Assembly: GCA_903929765.1 (NCBI GenBank)
Contig: CAIYVX010000054.1
Span: forward strand, 1 to 32,327
Length of the DNA stretch: 32,327 nt
DNA from: an uncultured Planctomycetia bacterium
GTDB lineage: Bacteria > Planctomycetota > Phycisphaerae > FEN-1346 > JAACEH01
Reading direction: 5' to 3'
The notes below the pieces were generated by a model, which made no database searches, was not told the DNA's origin, and worked only from the letters and a program-made list of their open reading frames with translations. The position numbers and the translations under genes were made by a program. The first letter of the stretch is position 1. Each line of letters opens with the position of its first letter. This document shows positions 9,669 through 28,944 of this stretch, one piece after another.

Positions 9669-10061
9669 CTACTCCACATAGACCATCCAAAGGACGCCAA
9701 ACCGATCCGTCACCATCCCAAACCGCGGCGAAAAATGCATCTCGGCCATGGCCTGACACACCTCGCCCCCATCGCCGAGCGCCGCAAACAGCCGTTCCGC
9801 CTCGGCCACTTCCGGCATCGTAAGCGACAGCGCGAAGCCCGCGAAGTTCGGGCCGTCGAAGCTGTGTCCGTCGGACATCAGCACCGTTGTCTCCCCGATC
9901 TTCACGCTCGCGTACATCACTTTCTCTTCGCTGCTGGGCGGCGGTTTCGGGCTGTCCTTGTAGCGCACAACCATAGTCGTCTCCGCACCGAGCGCGCCGC
10001 GATAAAACTCAATCGCCTCCTCGCACCGGCCGTTGAAAAACAGGAAAGGCTTAATTTGCAT
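9669..10061 (-). CDS. PhnB/YjdN-like VOC (glyoxalase-fold) protein
   Basis: 130 residues from ATG 10061, which follows an AGGAG site. The longer frame upstream reads into a palindromic repeat and is not a real N-terminus. The opening residues (PFLFFNGRCEEAIEFYRGALGAE), MYASVKIGETTVLMSDG, and the end PRFGMVTDRFGVLWMVYVE are characteristic of the PhnB-like vicinal-oxygen-chelate group. Substrate is unknown for most members. It is separated from the upstream GT9 gene by a 160-base repeat-filled gap and is followed closely by the DUF2062 gene. Confidence 0.88.
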   Translation of the reverse strand: MQIKPFLFFNGRCEEAIEFYRGALGAETTMVVRYKDSPKPPPSSEEKVMYASVKIGETTVLMSDGHSFDGPNFAGFALSLTMPEVAEAERLFAALGDGGEVCQAMAEMHFSPRFGMVTDRFGVLWMVYVE

Positions 10062-10223
10062 GGTGTCTCCTTTTTCTTCTTTTGAAGCCCCCAGCACTGC
10101 TGTGGGACGCCGTTTCTTCTTCGTTTTCTTCTTCTTCACACCTCCCCCTTGGGGGATGGTAGGGTGAGGGTCGCCGTTTCTTCTTCTAATTTTTCATTTT
10201 CAATTTTTAATTTTTCATTATCT
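10062..10223. repeat. Repeat-filled spacer between GT9 and VOC genes
   Basis: In order: a family A palindrome with one arm base changed (10073-10136), a CCCCCTTGGGGG hairpin with AGGGTGAGGG (10136-10175), then an AT-rich tract of AATTTTTAATTTTT type (10186-10222). The same family A plus AT-rich combination occurs at 28828-28944. No gene is seen. Confidence 0.75.
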
Positions 10224-11390
10224 TCACTCGACCACTTTTCTCACCGCCGCAAACACTTCATCGACCGATACCGCCCGCTGGCACCGCAGTTCTTCCGCCC
10301 GGCCCGCCAACCGGCAGACCCGCTCGTAACACTCCGCACATTCCACCCGCCCGCTGATCACGACGTGCCCGCGACCGTAAGGCCCGGCCCGCTCCGCGCT
10401 GGTCGGTCCGAAAATCGCCACCACCGGCCGACCCAGCGCCGCCGCCAGGTGCATCGGACCCGTATCATTGGTAATCACCACCGCCGCCCCGCGCAGCACC
10501 GCCGCCAATGTCTTCAAATCCGTCCGCCCGGCTATGTTTACAGTGGCACGGGCGTCCCGCCCGTGAGTCACAGGGGCATCTTGCCCCTGTGCCGTTGTTG
10601 TTTCTTCTTCTTTTGAAGCCCCCGGCATTGCTGGGGGACGCTGTTTCTTCTGTTGTTGTTCCACCAGGCCCCCGTTAACCCGCGCCGCTATCTCCCGCTC
10701 CTCCGGCCCGCCCACCAGCACAATTGCCAGCCCCAGTTCCTCCCGAATCCGCCCCGCCAGCGCCGCAAACCGTTCCTCCGGCCACCGCTTCGTCGGCCAC
10801 CGCGCCCCGGGAACCAGCACGACGTACCGCTCGCCGTCCTTCAACCCCTCCGCCGCCAGAATCCGCCGGGCCTCGACCGCCTTCGCCTCGGCAATGTTCA
10901 GATCAAACCGTCGCGGCGCCTCCGCCGGAACGCCCAGCGCCGTCGCCGCCAGCATGTACCGATCCACCGCCGACATCGGCGCCGTCGGCACCCGAACCAC
11001 CGTGGTGTAAAACCGCGCCGCCCCTTCCCGCGCATCCGACAACCCGATCCGCGTCGCCGCCCCCGTCGCCCAACTCAAAAATCCGCTGCGGAACAATCCT
11101 TGAAGGTCCACCACCGCCGTGTACCGCGTGCGCCGCAACTTCAGCACAAACGAGACGAATGCCACAAAGGCCGCCGGGTTCCACCACATCCGCCCAAATC
11201 TGTGGCGGTCGAAAAGCACGATCTTGTCAACGGACCCCACCAGTTCCACCACCCCGGCGCAACCCGGCGTCACCAGCCAGTCGATCCGCGCTTGCGCCGC
11301 CAGCCCGCGCAACGCCCGCGCCACCGGCGCCGCCTGAATCACGTCGCCCAGACTGCTCGGCTTGATTATCAGTATCCGCGACAAATCCAA
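10224..11390 (-). CDS. GT9 family glycosyltransferase (ADP-heptose:LPS heptosyltransferase-like)
   Basis: 388 residues starting from TTG 11390, with AAGGAG seven bases upstream and one base after the kinase stop. GT9 features are ILIIKPSSLGDVIQAAPVARAL at the N-terminus, a mid-protein LVPGARWPTKRWPEERFAAL, and the donor-site block VITNDTGPMHLAAALGRPVVAIFGPT. These enzymes add heptose, or another ADP-/UDP-sugar, to the LPS inner core in the cytoplasm. Residues about 244-284 are an in-frame insertion made of a family A repeat and a GCCCCTGTG/CACAGGGGC plus CGGGCG/CGCCCG double hairpin. The insertion lies in the loop before the NIAGRTDL strand, so the enzyme may still fold. Heptose specificity is inferred only from family. 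Confidence 0.85.
   Translation of the reverse strand: MDLSRILIIKPSSLGDVIQAAPVARALRGLAAQARIDWLVTPGCAGVVELVGSVDKIVLFDRHRFGRMWWNPAAFVAFVSFVLKLRRTRYTAVVDLQGLFRSGFLSWATGAATRIGLSDAREGAARFYTTVVRVPTAPMSAVDRYMLAATALGVPAEAPRRFDLNIAEAKAVEARRILAAEGLKDGERYVVLVPGARWPTKRWPEERFAALAGRIREELGLAIVLVGGPEEREIAARVNGGLVEQQQKKQRPPAMPGASKEEETTTAQGQDAPVTHGRDARATVNIAGRTDLKTLAAVLRGAAVVITNDTGPMHLAAALGRPVVAIFGPTSAERAGPYGRGHVVISGRVECAECYERVCRLAGRAEELRCQRAVSVDEVFAAVRKVVE
10539..10661. repeat. Composite palindromic repeat inserted in frame in the GT9 gene
   Basis: Read on the minus strand: AACAACAACAGAAGAAACAG linker, family A palindrome with one mismatch, GCTTCAAAAGAAGAAGAA, AACAACAACGG, then the hairpin CAGGGGC/GCCCCTG and the hairpin CACGGGCG/CGCCCGTG. 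All 123 bases are an open part of the GT9 frame. A partner of the double hairpin occurs between genes at 28773-28815. Confidence 0.85.
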
Positions 11391-18710: not shown

Positions 18711-18862
18711 TCTAGCCCCGAAGGGGCGGAAGTTTTTAGCCGTGGGCGTAAGCCCACGGTAGACCGCTCGCATCGAGATTTTTTTTTGTTTCTTTCAAGC
18801 CCCGGAGGGGCGACAGTCACTTTCGCCCCGCTGGGTCTGAGAAGAAAAAGAAGAAAAAGTAT
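18711..18862. repeat. Composite hairpin repeat ahead of kbl
   Basis: In order on the + strand: GCCCCGAAGGGGC (18715-18727), CCGTGGGC-GTAA-GCCCACGG (18740-18759), GCCCCGGAGGGGC (18799-18811), a decayed copy near 18824-18840, then an AGAAGAAAAAG tract. The first 47 bases match the start of the element ahead of tdh (20563-20714) almost exactly, and the order of hairpins is the same. Confidence 0.8.
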
Positions 18863-20562: not shown

Positions 20563-20714
20563 TCAGCCCCGAAGGGGCGGAAGTATTTAGCCGTGGGCGT
20601 AAGCCCACGGTATGCAACGCCCAAGAACGTTTTCTTCTTTCTTATTCAGCCCCGAAGGGGCGATAGTACTGCCGCCCCTTCGGGGCTGAGAAGAAGAAGA
20701 AAAAGAAGAAAAGA
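20563..20714. repeat. Composite hairpin repeat ahead of tdh
   Basis: GCCCCGAAGGGGC (20566-20578), CCGTGGGC-GTAA-GCCCACGG (20591-20610), GCCCCGAAGGGGC (20649-20661), GCCGCCCCTTCGGGGC (20671-20686), then AAGAAGAAGAAAAAG. It ends 16 bases before the tdh ATG and duplicates the architecture of the element ahead of kbl. Confidence 0.8.
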
Positions 20715-20770: not shown

Positions 20771-21382
20771 TCAACCGGCCCGCTCCACATGGAAGATGGC
20801 CAGCGAGGTGCGGAGGTTTTCGAAGACGGGCGTCATGCGGGCGCCGCGGGCGGTGAGGAAAATCTCCTTCAGAATTTTTACGCCCTCGCCGGCGGCGAAC
20901 TCGCGAAAGTCGCGGACGGTCAGTTGGCGGACGTTGGGCGTGTCGTACCAGTCGTAGGGGAGCAGGCGGGTGCGGGGCATGCGGCCGAGGAAGCCCAGTT
21001 GGAGCCGCATCGACCAGTGGCCGAAGTTGGGGAAACTGATGATGCCGCGGCGGCCGACGCGGAGCATTTCCTTGATGACCTTTCGCGGGTCGAGGGTCTG
21101 CTGGAGCGTCTGGCTGAGGATGACGGTTTCGAAGGTGCCGGGGCCGAAAAGTTCGAGTCCTTCGAGGATGTCGCCGTGGTAGACGGCCAGGCCGCGCTCG
21201 ACGCAATCGAGGACGCGGGTCTCGTTGATTTCTACGCCGCGGCCGACGACGTGCTTTTTAGAGACCAGTTCTTCCAGGAGCTGGCCGTCGCCGCAACCGA
21301 GGTCGAGGACGTGGGAGCCGGGCGGGATGAGTTCTTCGATCAGTTCGTAATCGACGCGGCGGCGGTGGGAGGGGTGGGTCAT
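20771..21382 (-). CDS. metW: MetW, methionine biosynthesis methyltransferase-like protein
   Basis: 203 residues. A class I SAM-methyltransferase fold: VLDLGCGDGQLLEEL (25-39), GVEINE, and SQTLQQTLDPRKVIKEMLRVG with FPNFGHW, diagnostic of MetW. MetW partners with MetX in homoserine acylation in many bacteria. The ATG shares four bases (ATGA) with the metX stop, so the two are co-translated. It is controlled by the SAM riboswitch ahead of metX. Confidence 0.94.
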   Translation of the reverse strand: MTHPSHRRRVDYELIEELIPPGSHVLDLGCGDGQLLEELVSKKHVVGRGVEINETRVLDCVERGLAVYHGDILEGLELFGPGTFETVILSQTLQQTLDPRKVIKEMLRVGRRGIISFPNFGHWSMRLQLGFLGRMPRTRLLPYDWYDTPNVRQLTVRDFREFAAGEGVKILKEIFLTARGARMTPVFENLRTSLAIFHVERAG

Positions 21383-21485
21383 GGCTTGCCCGCCTCATTC
21401 TCATGGCGGCAAACATCGCCGCCATGCCACCCAGGTTTTTCTTCATGGCCCGTCTGCGCCGGACCATGCCACCCACCGGTCTGAA
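21379..21485. repeat. Palindrome-rich C-terminal extension of metX
   Basis: It contains ATGGCGGC-AAACATC-GCCGCCAT (around 21402-21425) and two copies of CCATGCCACCC. These are read in frame as the last 34 or so residues of MetX. Confidence 0.55.
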
Positions 21486-22659
21486 CTTGACGGAGAGTGG
21501 CGGCGAGGAAGGAGCGGATGGCGTTTTCCTGCTGGTCGTTGGGGAGGAGGAAGGCGTCGTGGCCGTAGTCGGAGGGTATTTCGACGAAGGTGGCGTGGAC
21601 GGCGTTGGCCTGCAGGGCCTTGACGATTTCCTTGGACTGGGCGGTGAGGAAGAGCCAGTCGCTGGTGAAGCTGATGACGAGGGCGCGGGTTTCGGGCCGC
21701 AGCCGCGCGAAGGCCTGGACGAGGGAGCCATCGCCCCAGGCGGCCGCGGCGTCGTAATAGTCGACGGCCTTGCTGATGTAGAGGTAGGTGTTGGCGTCGA
21801 AACGTTTGATAAAGGCGTCGCCCTGGTGGCGGAGGTAGCTTTCGACTTCGAATTCGACTTCGAAATCGTAGCCGTAACCGGCGCGGCCCTGAAGGCGGCG
21901 GCCAAACTTTTCGCGCATCGACTGCTGCGAGAGGTAGGTGATGTGGGCGATCATGCGGGCGATGGCCAGGCCGGCGTGGGGCGGCTGGCCGGCGTAATAG
22001 TCGCCGCGATTCCAGTTGGGGTCCTTCATGATGGCCTGGCGGCCGACCTCGTCGAAGGCGATGCCCTGGGCCGAGAGGCGCGCGGTGGAAGCGATGGGGA
22101 TGAGGCTGGCGACGCGGTCGGGATAGCGCAGCGCCCAGTCGAGGACCTGCATGCCGCCCATGCTGCCGCCGATGACGGAGAGGAGGCGGGCGATGCCGAG
22201 ATGTTCGACCAGCCGAGCCTGGGCCTGAACCATGTCGCCCATGGTGACGACGGGGAAGGCGAGGCCGTAGGGCTTTCCGGTGGCGGGGTTGGTGGAGCTT
22301 GGTCCGGTGGAGCCTTTGCAGCCGCCGAGGCAGTTGGAGCAGATGACGAAATACTTGTTGGTGTCGATGGGCTTGTCGGGGCCGATCATGAGTTCCCACC
22401 AGCCGGGCTTGCGGTCGTCGGGTTTGTGGCGTCCGGCGACGTGGGCGTCACCGGTGAGGGCGTGGACGACGAGAACGGCGTTGTCTTTTTCGGGCGAGAG
22501 CGTGCCGTAAGTTTCGTAGGCGAGGGTGACGGGGGAGAGCTTCTGGCCGCACTCCAGGGGCAGAGCGTCGGCGGGCGTCGTGGCGAAGGTGAAGAACCTG
22601 GTCTCCACCAGGCCGACGCTGGGGCCGCGAGATTCGAGGTCGATGTTGTCGATGGACAT
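21379..22659 (-). CDS. metX: Homoserine O-acetyltransferase
   Basis: 426 residues. An alpha/beta hydrolase-fold enzyme that transfers an acyl group (usually acetyl) from CoA to homoserine, the first committed step of methionine synthesis. The catalytic triad is visible: S166 in GGSMGGMQ, D334 in TSDWLFLT and H367 in DYGHDAFLL. The family motif NCLGGCKGSTGP is present. The enzyme normally ends soon after the LRQ at about 392; here about 34 further residues rich in Gly, His and Trp follow (21379-21485), read from a palindrome-rich segment with repeated GGGTGGCATGG. The ATG at 22659 directly abuts the T-run of the riboswitch terminator, so the SD sequence lies in the terminator's 3' arm. Metal or succinyl specificity cannot be told. 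Confidence 0.94.
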   Translation of the reverse strand: MSIDNIDLESRGPSVGLVETRFFTFATTPADALPLECGQKLSPVTLAYETYGTLSPEKDNAVLVVHALTGDAHVAGRHKPDDRKPGWWELMIGPDKPIDTNKYFVICSNCLGGCKGSTGPSSTNPATGKPYGLAFPVVTMGDMVQAQARLVEHLGIARLLSVIGGSMGGMQVLDWALRYPDRVASLIPIASTARLSAQGIAFDEVGRQAIMKDPNWNRGDYYAGQPPHAGLAIARMIAHITYLSQQSMREKFGRRLQGRAGYGYDFEVEFEVESYLRHQGDAFIKRFDANTYLYISKAVDYYDAAAAWGDGSLVQAFARLRPETRALVISFTSDWLFLTAQSKEIVKALQANAVHATFVEIPSDYGHDAFLLPNDQQENAIRSFLAATLRQVQTGGWHGPAQTGHEEKPGWHGGDVCRHENEAGKP

Positions 22660-22710: not shown

Positions 22711-22835
22711 CTCCTCATCTTTTCCCCCGGTCGAACGGGGGCGGGAATTAGCACCTGGTCATTTCGGCGGAACAATGCCGGAACCGGTTGCTGTGGCTTC
22801 GCAGGGCCCGTCCCTCAGCCACTCTGGATAAGAAG
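22711..22835 (-). promoter_or_regulatory. SAM-I (S-box) riboswitch aptamer of metX-metW
   Basis: On the minus strand, P1 is formed by CTTCTTATC (22835-22827) and GATGAGGAG (22719-22711), nine pairs allowing G-U. Between are the S-box core blocks: CCAGAGTGGCTGAGGGACGG, GGCCCTGCGAAGCCACAGCAACC, and GGTGCTAATTCC followed by a CCCCCG/CGGGGG stem. It binds S-adenosylmethionine and, with a terminator downstream, should turn the operon off when SAM is plentiful. The P1 3' strand (GGAGAAGG) can pair with the terminator 5' arm (CCTCTTCC) with one mismatch and one wobble, a possible antiterminator. Confidence 0.95.
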
Positions 22836-22894: not shown

Positions 22895-22980
22895 GCGATT
22901 TTTCGGCAAGATGGGCGGCTAGTCGCGGTTGAAGCGACTTGCTACCATGCCTTCTCAACGTTCATTTTGAAGGAGATCCG

Positions 22981-25572
22981 ATGTCGAAGACGACACTCAG
23001 CGGGCGGTGGGAATTGCGGCAGCATTCGCGGACACCGACGATCAGCGGGACGGTGGCGGCGACGGTGCCGGGGTGCGTGCATACGGATCTGTTGAAGGCG
23101 GGGAAGATTTCGGATCCGTATTACCGGCGAAACGAACTCGACGTGCTGTGGATCGATTCGGCGGACTGGGAATATCGGCGGACGGTGCGGGCGACGAAAG
23201 AGCAGTGCGGCGCGCGGGTGCAGCAACTGGTGTTCGAGGGGCTGGACACGATTGCGGAGGTGTTTCTGAACGGGCAGAAGGTTGGGGCGGCGGATAATAT
23301 GTTCCGGCGGTGGCGGTTCGACGTGGCGGGAGTGCTGCGGGCGGGGGAGAACGAACTGCGGGTGATTTTTCGCAGTCCGGTGGAGTACGGACGGCGGCAG
23401 CACGAGAAACATCGGGCGGCGGTCAGGCCGCTGGAGAGCATGGCCCAGTTGGATGACCGGCCATCGCGGCTGACTTTTCATCCTTACCTTCGCAAGGCGC
23501 AGTACCAGTTCGGGTGGGATTGGGGTCCGATGCTGGCGACGAGCGGAATCTGGAAGGATTGCTATCTGCTGGCCACGGACGAGCCGTGGATCGAGTACGT
23601 GACGACGGCGCAGACACACCGGCGGGGGAAAGTCGAGTTGGAGGTGACGGCGCACCTGACGGCGCCGCGGCGCGCGGCGGGCGTGCTGCGCATTCGGGTG
23701 GACGGGCGGACGGTGGCGGTGGCCGGGGAATTGCGGAAGGGGGAGAATCGCGTTACGGGGCGCGTGACCATCGAGCGGCCGCGGCTGTGGTGGCCGGCTG
23801 GGGCGGGGGAGCAGCCGCTGTATCGGGTCGAAGTGCAATGGGAAACGGAGAAGCAACAGAAGAAGCAGAAGAAACAGCGTCCCCCGGCAATGCTGGGGGC
23901 TTCTCAAGAAGAAGCCACGTGGACCGGGCGGGTGGGGCTGCGGACGGTGGAGTTGGTTCAGGAAAAAGATGCCGAGGGGCGCACGTTCAAATTCCGCATC
24001 AATGGGCGAGATATTTATTGCAAGGGGGCCAACTGGATTCCCGACGACGTGTTTCCGACGCGGACCACACCGGAGCGGTTGCGGTTCCTGCTCAGGAGCG
24101 CGGTCGAGGCGAACATGAACATGCTGCGGGTCTGGGGCGGCGGGGTTTATGCGGACGAGGAGTTTCTCGATCTTTGCGATGAATTGGGAATCATGCTCTG
24201 GCACGATCTAATGTTCGCGTGCGCCGCTTATCCTGACCACGCGGCTTTTCTCAGGAACGTGGAGGCGGAAGTGCGGCACCAGGTGCGGCGGATGGGGAAC
24301 CATCCGGCCATCGTGCTCTGGTGCGGGAACAACGAGAACCAGACGGCGGTGGATTCCTGGTGGGCGAACGAGCCGAAGCAGCGGCGAATGCGGAAGGCTT
24401 ATGACCGCTTGACCTACGGCGTGGAAGAACGGGTAGTGCTGGAGGAAGACCGGACGCGGCCGTGGGTGCCGAGTTCGCCGTCGGGCTGCCCGCGAAAGAG
24501 CGGCTATGCCTTTGGTTGGGATAAGAGCGGCGACATGCACGATTGGAACGTCTGGCACGGGCGGAAGGAGTTTTCGTATTATCTGACGACGCGGCCGCGG
24601 TTTGCGAGCGAATTCGGGTTCCAATCGTTCCCGTCCATCGAGACGCTGCGGACGGTGGCGAGGCCGGAGGACATGAACGTCTCGAGTCCGGTGATGAACC
24701 ATCACCAGCGCAATCGCGCCGGCAACTCGTTAATTACGGACCATCTGATGCGGTCGTTCCGCTTCCCGGCCGACTTCGACGACTTCTGCTACCTGTCGCA
24801 GGTCAACCAGGGGCTGGCGCTGAAACTGGCCATCGAGCATTGGCGGCGCATCAAGCCGCGGTGCATGGGGACGACCTATTGGCAACTGAACGACGACTGG
24901 CCGGTGGCGTCGTGGTCGTCGATTGACTGGCGCCTGCGGTGGAAAGCGTTGCACTACCTGGCCAAACGGTTTTTTGCGCCGCTCCTGGCGTCGGTGAGCG
25001 ACGATGCGGCAGGTCTGCGGCTCTGGGCGACAAGCGATCTGGCCGAGGCGGTGCAGGGGCAGTGGACGGCGGAGGCGTGGACGTATGCGGGGCGGCGCGT
25101 CTGGCGGAAGAGCGGGCGGTTCGGCCTGGCGGCGGACGAATCGCGAGCCGTGGCGGCGCTGGCGAAGGAGAAGATTCTGGAACTGCCCGGCGGGGCGGAT
25201 AAGGTTTTCCTGGTGGTCGAACTTCGGGCGGGAGGGCAGCGGTCGACGAACACCTACAGTTTCACGCCGCTGAAGGCGGTGGAGTTGCGGCGGTCGCGGA
25301 TTCGGGCGACGGTGAGCAAGGCAGGCGAGGGGTTTGCGGTGCGGCTGGTTGCGGATGCTCCGGCGTTCCATGTGGAACTTTCGACGCGGACGATGGGCGG
25401 GGTGTTCAGCGACAATATTATCACGCTGTTGCCGGGGCGGGCGGTGACGGTGCGATTTACGCCGCGCGGTGAGACGACGCTGGCAGAGTTGAAGAAGGCC
25501 CTGAAGGTGCGGAGCGTGCGGGATACTTATTACCCGATCTTCACTTCGCGGCCCAACTTGCTCGACTGGTAG
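22981..25572 (+). CDS. Beta-mannosidase (glycoside hydrolase family 2)
   Basis: 863 residues from ATG 22981, with AAGGAG just upstream. GH2 architecture: an N-terminal jelly-roll sugar-binding domain, immunoglobulin-like domains, and a TIM barrel starting near KGANWIPDD. The acid/base E452 (WCGNNENQ) and nucleophile E544 (RFASEFGFQ) fit GH2 beta-mannosidases. It removes terminal mannose from beta-manno-oligosaccharides; no signal peptide is seen, so it is probably cytoplasmic. Residues about 290-311 are a family A palindrome and its linker read in frame, in a linker between beta domains. The 3' end overlaps the convergent oxidoreductase gene by 43 bases, and the last 13 residues (after VRDTY) may be an extension. 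Confidence 0.9.
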   Translation: MSKTTLSGRWELRQHSRTPTISGTVAATVPGCVHTDLLKAGKISDPYYRRNELDVLWIDSADWEYRRTVRATKEQCGARVQQLVFEGLDTIAEVFLNGQKVGAADNMFRRWRFDVAGVLRAGENELRVIFRSPVEYGRRQHEKHRAAVRPLESMAQLDDRPSRLTFHPYLRKAQYQFGWDWGPMLATSGIWKDCYLLATDEPWIEYVTTAQTHRRGKVELEVTAHLTAPRRAAGVLRIRVDGRTVAVAGELRKGENRVTGRVTIERPRLWWPAGAGEQPLYRVEVQWETEKQQKKQKKQRPPAMLGASQEEATWTGRVGLRTVELVQEKDAEGRTFKFRINGRDIYCKGANWIPDDVFPTRTTPERLRFLLRSAVEANMNMLRVWGGGVYADEEFLDLCDELGIMLWHDLMFACAAYPDHAAFLRNVEAEVRHQVRRMGNHPAIVLWCGNNENQTAVDSWWANEPKQRRMRKAYDRLTYGVEERVVLEEDRTRPWVPSSPSGCPRKSGYAFGWDKSGDMHDWNVWHGRKEFSYYLTTRPRFASEFGFQSFPSIETLRTVARPEDMNVSSPVMNHHQRNRAGNSLITDHLMRSFRFPADFDDFCYLSQVNQGLALKLAIEHWRRIKPRCMGTTYWQLNDDWPVASWSSIDWRLRWKALHYLAKRFFAPLLASVSDDAAGLRLWATSDLAEAVQGQWTAEAWTYAGRRVWRKSGRFGLAADESRAVAALAKEKILELPGGADKVFLVVELRAGGQRSTNTYSFTPLKAVELRRSRIRATVSKAGEGFAVRLVADAPAFHVELSTRTMGGVFSDNIITLLPGRAVTVRFTPRGETTLAELKKALKVRSVRDTYYPIFTSRPNLLDW
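23848..23913. repeat. Family A palindrome inserted in frame in the beta-mannosidase gene
   Basis: The linker GAGAAGCAACAGAAGAAGCAG, split over this region, precedes CAGCGTCCCCCGGCA-A-TGCTGGGGG, then GCTTCTCAAGAAGAAG. It translates as a Lys/Gln-rich stretch followed by RPPAMLGASQEE. The same peptide (RPPAMPGASKEE) is encoded in the GT9 gene, meaning both copies are read in the same frame and orientation. Confidence 0.9.
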
Positions 25573-26579
25573 AGGCCGTCGATGATTTTCTGGATGGTCA
25601 GGGCCTGTTCGCCGGGAATGGCGACGGGCTTATTGTCGAGGACGGCGTCGGTGAAGTTCCAGAGGCCGAGGTGGTGCGGCGGGGCGGCATCTTTGACGAA
25701 TTGGGGTTCGCAGTTCATGAGCGTGCCGTTTTCTTCGAGGCAGACTTTGAGCGGATTGACAGAGGCGCCGCCCTTGTCGCCGACGATGTCGGCGGCAGCT
25801 TCGCGGTCGGCGGGGAGGTTGGCGCAGAAGGCGCTTTCGAGGCAGAGGGTCTGGCCGCCGGCGAAGCGGACGAGGGCGACGGCGAAATCCTCGACGTCAT
25901 AGGTTTTCCAGTCCCAGGCGCCGAACAGGCCGAAGTGGCCGGGAGTTTTGCCGATGGTCTCGTAACATTTGCCGCTCACGGAAACGGGCTTCGGGCAGCC
26001 CAGGAGGAACCAGGCGAGGTCGATGGCGTGGACGCCGATGTCGATGAGGGGACCGCCGCCCTGGAGTTTTTTCTGGCCGAAGACGCCCCAACTGGGCACG
26101 CCGCGCCGGCGGATGCTGACGCTGCGGGCGTAGTAGATGTGGCCGAGGCGGCCGGCGTCGATGAGGGATTTGACGAATTGGACGTCGCCGCGAAAGCGGT
26201 TGTGGAGTCCGATCATGAGTTTGCGGCGGGCTTTTTTGGCGGCGGCGACCATGGCGGCGCCTTCGCGGCCGTTCATGGCGATGGGCTTTTCGCAATAGAC
26301 GTGTTTGCCCGCGCGGAAGGCGGCCAGGGCGGCGGGGGCGTGATCGTAGTTGGGCGTGCAGATGTCGACGGCGGCGATTTCGTCAAGGGCGAGGAGTTCC
26401 TTGAGGGTTTTGCAGACGCGGGGAATGGCGAATTTTTCGGCGGCGGCTTCGGCCCGCTTTCGATCCACGTCGAAACAGGCGACGACTTTGGCTCGTTTGC
26501 AATTCGCCCAGCCGGGCAGATGCGCGCCGGTGGCAATGCCGCCGCAACCGATCAGGCCGAGGGAAAGTATTTTGTCCAT
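25530..26579 (-). CDS. Gfo/Idh/MocA family oxidoreductase
   Basis: 349 residues. The N-terminal Rossmann domain has LIGCGGIATGAHLPG (8-22), CTPNYDHAPAAL and the catalytic-loop CEKPIAM with K98. The C-terminal domain has GGGPLIDIGVHAIDLAWFLLG (H184 and D187 shape the active site). Such enzymes oxidise or epimerise sugars or cyclitols with NAD(P). The substrate is not evident, but the neighbouring beta-mannosidase suggests carbohydrate use. It is convergent with that gene, overlapping by 43 bases. An AAGGAGCC site precedes the ATG. Confidence 0.9.
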   Translation of the reverse strand: MDKILSLGLIGCGGIATGAHLPGWANCKRAKVVACFDVDRKRAEAAAEKFAIPRVCKTLKELLALDEIAAVDICTPNYDHAPAALAAFRAGKHVYCEKPIAMNGREGAAMVAAAKKARRKLMIGLHNRFRGDVQFVKSLIDAGRLGHIYYARSVSIRRRGVPSWGVFGQKKLQGGGPLIDIGVHAIDLAWFLLGCPKPVSVSGKCYETIGKTPGHFGLFGAWDWKTYDVEDFAVALVRFAGGQTLCLESAFCANLPADREAAADIVGDKGGASVNPLKVCLEENGTLMNCEPQFVKDAAPPHHLGLWNFTDAVLDNKPVAIPGEQALTIQKIIDGLYQSSKLGREVKIG

Positions 26580-26597: not shown

Positions 26598-26655
26598 AAA
26601 GAAGAAAAATAAGAAACAGCGTCCCCCAGCAGTGCTGGGGGCTTCAAAAGAAGAC
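26598..26655. repeat. Family A palindromic repeat, intergenic copy after rpmH
   Basis: AAGAAACAGCGTCCCCCAGCA-G-TGCTGGGGG followed by GCTTCAAAAGAAGA, identical in core to the first copy at 441-490. It lies between the rpmH terminator and the oxidoreductase start. Confidence 0.85.
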
Positions 26656-28762: not shown

Positions 28763-28768
28763 GCCCAG

Positions 28769-28944
28769 TAGCATGGGCATCTTGCCCATGAGTCCCACGG
28801 GCGTCCCGCCCGTGGTCTTGGCTTTTGCTTCTTCTTTTTCTTCTTCTTTTGAAGCCCCCAGCATTGCTGGGGGACGCCGTTTCTTCTTCTGCCGTTGCCT
28901 TTGTTGTCTTTAATTTTTAATTTTGCATTTTTAATTTTTAATTC
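28769..28944. repeat. Composite repeat between the GT-B gene and its terminator
   Basis: ATGGGC-ATCTT-GCCCAT (28773-28789), CCACGGGCG/CGCCCGTGG (28795-28815), a family A palindrome with its linkers (28828-28900), and an AT-rich AATTTTTAATTTTT tract (28909-28944). The first two hairpins correspond to those inside the GT9 gene. Confidence 0.8.

Follow-up and report, generated by a model that had tools for sequence, protein, structure and literature searches.

In-frame insertion of a composite of two REP-like palindrome families in a planctomycetal GT9 gene whose product probably remains functional

The 32,327-nucleotide stretch of DNA analysed here (the window), from an uncultured planctomycete, raises the question of how a composite repeat came to lie within the open reading frame of a GT9 gene, and whether the encoded enzyme could still function. 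We propose, with a probability of roughly 85%, that this segment is made up of REP-like palindromes of two families, A and B, of which B is most likely moved by a RAYT transposase, and that it was inserted in frame in a loop of the GT9 protein, where it is tolerated, the enzyme probably still working.

The host gene (positions 10224 to 11390, minus strand) is predicted to encode an ADP-heptose:LPS heptosyltransferase-like protein, and a Kdo/WaaP-like kinase gene is its neighbor. The product matches Pfam PF01075 in two stretches (E 2e-52; 178 bits versus a cut-off of 22) and narrowly exceeds the threshold of NCBIfam TIGR02195 (135.1 bits; cut-off 134.6), while the best solved Foldseek matches of its model are the GT9 enzymes 3tov, 1psw, and WaaC (2h1h), with TM-scores to the target of 0.82 to 0.84. 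Assignment to GT9 is thus based on both the PF01075 domain and the fold.

The segment had been described as an in-frame repeat insertion, a proposal which was borne out by alignment: it is absent from all 109 homologous GT9 proteins, in most of which the loop at this site is just a few residues long. The closest homologue, from a Phycisphaerae MAG taken to represent a genome of the same family (G001), has four residues there, and another member of the class carries an unrelated, shorter extension, which indicates that the loop tolerates changes in length. The insert extends the loop that follows the helix ending at residue 250 and, as previously noted, precedes the NIAGRTDL strand. The limits first given (10539 to 10661; 123 bases) did not hold to the same extent, since CA or CC precedes GTGG tags (see below) and the simplest event would therefore span positions 10543 to 10662. 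This extent (120 nucleotides or 40 codons on the minus strand, specifying the EQQQKKQRPPAMPGASKEEETTTAQGQDAPVTHGRDARAT region), which is more likely on the basis of the homologue alignment and the junction dinucleotides, has CA directly 5′ of the GTGG tag on the plus strand and CC at its far end. Joining the flanks without it yields N-G-G-L-V-V-N-I-A, in frame, with a loop approximately three residues shorter than that of a 62% identical orthologue, and either the boundaries or the extent of later small changes is, therefore, uncertain. An assembly artefact, in which misjoining at a repeat put the segment into this gene, was considered, as the genome is a draft of 116 contigs in which some transposase genes lie less than 800 bases from contig starts; it is, however, extremely improbable, as both flanks belong to a single GT9 gene from which nothing is missing and whose reading frame is intact, and the sampled DNA contained 15 further called in-frame cases, to which G001 adds one.

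The composite nature of the segment, as originally recognized, was evident from its parts, all given here on the plus strand. A CA dinucleotide (10541 to 10542), the presumed RAYT target or cleavage dinucleotide in view of the genome-wide CA/CC rule and published work (PMC8266576), is followed by a B element (10543 to 10590), which comprises the GTGG tag and two 19-nucleotide hairpins at a 24-nucleotide pitch (tandem units at 10547 to 10565 and 10571 to 10589). A pyrimidine-rich, TTC-rich, triplet-like linker (10591 to 10614) then leads to the 27-nucleotide core of an A hairpin (10615 to 10641), whose CGTC-type tag precedes the palindrome on the reverse strand, and a further linker extends beyond it within the insert. 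The gene reads this composite without a stop codon and in its polar orientation, giving a Q/K/E-rich segment (GQDAPVTHGRDARAT) and the peptide GQDAPVTHGRDAR within the GT9 protein. No Rfam RNA family covered the insert.

Recurrence of the double hairpin between genes, also claimed from the outset, was confirmed at positions 28767 to 28814 (plus strand), and an A hairpin follows at 28851 to 28877 (plus) in the same order and orientation as in the GT9 insert. Further A hairpins of the window are located in frame within a GH2 (mannosidase-like) gene (23877 to 23903, minus, in gene 22939 to 25572), where the frame is that of the GT9 copy (RPPAMLGAS); at the 5′ end of the neighboring minus-strand gene 9669 to 10139 (10084 to 10110, plus); directly upstream of the minus-strand gene 25530 to 26579 (26619 to 26645, minus); and in an intergenic region (454 to 480, minus).

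The 123-nucleotide query matched 47 places in the 3.83-Mb genome, the best non-self match having an E value of 2e-35, a similarity far above that expected by chance. A sample of 1.41 Mb, taken in stretches that are partly centered on known copies and whose densities are consequently not unbiased, contained 83 A and 138 B units in 128 clusters. Although 83% of the sampled DNA is coding, 105 clusters are intergenic and 7 lie at gene ends, leaving 16 inside called genes. B units have an 8-bp stem and a 3-nucleotide loop, and stem positions 3, 6, and 8 show paired changes; 92% of stem cells are paired, compared to 78% when the arms were shuffled (maximum, 84%). Tagged B ends carry GTGG (62), GTAG (9), or GTGA (5), the second unit of the dimer being without a clear GTGG tag, and 61 of 63 pairs are tandem, in one orientation and at the 24-nucleotide pitch. 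The A family has a CGTC (52/83) or CATC (29/83) tag, an 8- to 9-bp stem with C-G pairs at its base, and a CTTC tail.

The order B-linker-A is a recurring arrangement, found in one orientation in 17 linked pairs as opposed to approximately three A-first clusters, and it may move as one unit, or A may prefer the linker adjoining B; the two parts may have reached the GT9 gene in a single step or in two. Most linkers, also those of intergenic copies, have lengths that leave the same remainder on division by three. Variation largely in three-base steps would be expected of triplet slippage, and growth of the insert in place, by slippage or copying of flanking DNA and without a transposase, might be envisaged. 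That B and A are high-copy families elsewhere, with conserved ends and transposase-linked copies, renders such an origin very unlikely and favors insertion of mobile elements.

Genes hosting such elements include those for the GT9 and GH2 mannosidase-like proteins, an MMPL transporter, a helicase, ValS, GT4, KdtA, a BatA-like protein, MiaB, a P-type ATPase, a molybdopterin oxidoreductase, and a GH42-like protein. As genes were called with a simple codon-usage gene finder and "inside a gene" means inside an open frame, the in-frame counts are conditioned on this definition. Sense copies of B in genes (eight genes, one of them in G001) were found only in the frame giving TG(V/I)xPV, two frames being open, and antisense copies (nine) only in the GQDARAT frame, three being open; a weak single match in L183 is a possible exception, and L183, L286, and L291 each gave one weak B match, which was set aside as probable chance. 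All four A copies in genes are antisense and specify polar K/E/Q linkers rather than Phe/Leu runs. The use of only two of five open frames by B, coupled with intact stems in all 12 in-gene hairpins, could be taken to mean that the insert was selected as a useful feature, be it a protein linker or a regulatory mRNA hairpin, rather than merely tolerated. This is regarded as most improbable, given that the phase of CA/CC in codons accounts for part of the frame bias, that the hosts are unrelated, that orthologues are without the insert, and that stems are also intact in 40 of 49 non-genic copies. The residual frame bias (p approximately 5e-4, a rough estimate from independent genes only) instead points to selection against the peptides of the other frames. 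Close same-strand neighbors of in-gene elements revealed no obvious broken gene when split genes were sought, and under the proposed tolerance of in-frame copies, gene-breaking insertions would have been purged.

Candidates for the proteins moving these elements were found beside copies of each family. On contig C82 of the genome (L142), a RAYT gene is flanked on both sides by inverted B dimers and is itself nested in valS, the two forming one open frame of 1,308 amino acids (L142:11182-15024; approximately 71.2 to 75.0 kb of the contig; 909 bits), with the RAYT inserted between profile positions 206 and 210; no other valS scored above the cut-off in this genome (96% completeness). This RAYT matches REP_Tyr_transpos (NF047646) with 64.4 bits (E 1e-17), below the 80-bit cut-off, and the ValS protein harbors a further repeat-like insert (KPFLLHPSPSGEGGPSGPGEGLRPLP). 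A second Y1 transposase gene (L159) has A copies approximately 57 and 41 nucleotides beyond its ends. Across the phylum, a flank-to-flank repeat of at least 12 nucleotides was shared in 28 of 30 homologues of the A-type and 21 of 30 of the B-type transposase, far above the mismatched-pair controls (27/870 [3%] and 55/870 [6%], respectively), which suggests that the repeats tend to be particular to each transposase clade. A simple stem search (at least 9 bp) near A-transposase homologues returned few hairpin pairs, and the repeat-sharing test was the more informative. By eye, other Y1 transposase genes (L009, L014, L015, and L016) are each accompanied by a different hairpin family (CAGCCCGTTTTAACGGGCTTACC; GGTGCCACACTTTG...; TAGGGCGGTTGCGC...; GGTGGCATGGTCCGG...).

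The junctions of B follow a dinucleotide rule. Among 62 GTGG-tagged ends, CA stands ahead of 33 and CC ahead of 22 (55/62; background, approximately 14%), and these are the dinucleotides at which a GTGG guide is reported to select cleavage (PMC8266576), a correspondence which, by analogy, would link the junction to RAYT chemistry. The rule is weaker in G001, where CC precedes 26 of 42 tagged ends of the same B family and CA precedes none. B is, therefore, most likely a RAYT substrate, whose single-stranded hairpins would be joined 3′ of a CA or CC picked by the GTGG tag, and A is associated with the second Y1 transposase.

With regard to the enzyme, the insertion would have lengthened the gene by approximately 40 codons, and these, in their polar orientation, would form a disordered extension of the loop. 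An AlphaFold model built with 53 sequences has a mean pLDDT of 92.4 and a pTM of 0.89, and confidence is clearly lower only at residues ~251 to 280, which correspond to the insert (pLDDT ~56, disordered), and in part of the region near residues 350 to 370, the GT9/WaaC-like core exceeding 90. Residues D16, K201, D309, and H314, which we take to be the counterparts of the WaaC active-site residues, are invariant in the GT9 alignment. In view of this high-confidence modeled core and of the invariant catalytic residues, folding of the protein is most likely preserved and the enzyme is predicted to be active; the doubt about activity raised in the preliminary description is thereby largely answered by inference from a WaaC/WaaF-like model. 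The contrary reading, in which the insertion inactivated the gene and created a young pseudogene whose stops and frameshifts are yet to come, draws on the position of the insert directly ahead of the first donor-side motif strand and on the B dimer, whose closeness to the consensus may reflect a recent event. It is nonetheless considered unlikely, as the frame is open over its full length, the catalytic residues are intact, the core is modeled with high confidence, and similar insertions occur in genes that must work, namely the only valS of this genome and the only alaS of a relative. As to the age of the insert, for which it had been offered as a test case, a relative statement is possible: the GT9 B dimer differs from the genome consensus at 2 of 43 positions, compared to a mean of 4.0 for copies outside genes, and thus appears, judging by its sequence, to be no older than the average copy.

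Several known systems resemble parts of this arrangement. B resembles REPs and REPINs of the GTAG superfamily, with their RAYT/TnpA-REP proteins (PMC3733652, PMC8266576), in its small palindromes, 4-nucleotide tag, high copy number, mostly intergenic sites with some in genes, and Y1 RAYT association, and it has the terminal tetranucleotide tag, the 5- to 13-bp stem with a short loop and paired changes, and the RAYT association by which that superfamily is recognized. It is without the head-to-head dimers that are usual for, but do not define, the superfamily, and differs from it in the tandem pairs at a 24-nucleotide pitch, CA/CC ahead of GTGG, and the RAYT copy in frame in valS. A shares with CGTC REPs the CGTC/CATC tag and the 8- to 9-bp stem (PMC3733652); however, those REPs were reported without a transposase (PMC3733652), whereas A flanks a Y1 transposase, a finding of relevance to what mobilizes CGTC-like repeats. 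Formal classification of A as a CGTC REP was rejected, as the tag is present but A-T pairs at the first two stem positions and a CCA-like tail are not. Insertions of REPs in genes are already known (PMC3733652), and REP dimers within genes, as well as a GTGG variant, have been described in Opitutus terrae (PMC3733652, PMC8266576). Rickettsia palindromic elements are in-frame palindromes in unrelated protein genes that are translated as extra segments (PMC3733652), and the 16 in-gene clusters of A and B in the 1.41 Mb resemble them in behavior, without membership being claimed; the two are set apart, by description rather than by sequence, by the different phylum and the identified transposases. 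The GT9 protein shares its fold and catalytic residues with WaaC/WaaF (2h1h, 1psw, and 3tov) and differs in approximately 37 extra residues in the loop ahead of the donor-side strand. What is new here is that a single in-frame insert unites two REP families and that a likely mover and a rule for the junctions could be identified, which provides a natural case of mobile palindromes turned into protein sequence, with mover, site rule, and homologue comparison.

More surprising than the GT9 insert itself are the nested transposases, which are not confined to valS. In relatives, a RAYT homologue lies in frame within the only alaS of G105 (L252; 774 bits with its neighbors; between profile positions 652 and 654) and at the identical place in AlaS of G174 (L251), and others are in frame within PurH (L271) and DNA methyltransferases (L250, L265, L267, and L269). 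Eight genomes of a single family have a RAYT at one shared position in a second fabZ (L253 to L256, L258 to L260, and L263), where it is apparently inherited vertically; it was rejected as an essential-gene insertion, as all eight genomes have an intact fabZ. Neither the insert peptides nor in-frame RAYTs in essential genes were reported in the literature searched. It is tentatively suggested, at somewhat less than even odds, that in Planctomycetota REPs, and even complete RAYT genes, are maintained as passengers that are translated in frame within essential enzymes, and that such lock-in explains low-copy, vertically inherited RAYTs. If so, RAYTs would be kept because the host gene (valS, or alaS, purH, and methyltransferase genes in relatives) cannot be lost, and the transposase nested in valS makes the question of RAYT persistence directly testable.

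Other repeats and RNA elements were noted in the window. Two Rfam matches to the "sRNA" family Acido-Lenti-1 (18714 to 18759 and 20565 to 20610) resemble another REP-type repeat, and the family, listed as an sRNA, may instead be a mobile palindrome. The spacers of the window and of L127 to L164 are full of drifting short repeats (TTC, GTT, and GCC triplets, AATTTTTAATTTTTCATT, CTGAAGTCTGAAG, ACCACTGACCACT, CACCCCTCTCCCTTG...), and a SAM riboswitch (83 bits; 22712 to 22834, minus strand) lies upstream of a homoserine acetyltransferase-like gene (21379 to 22659).
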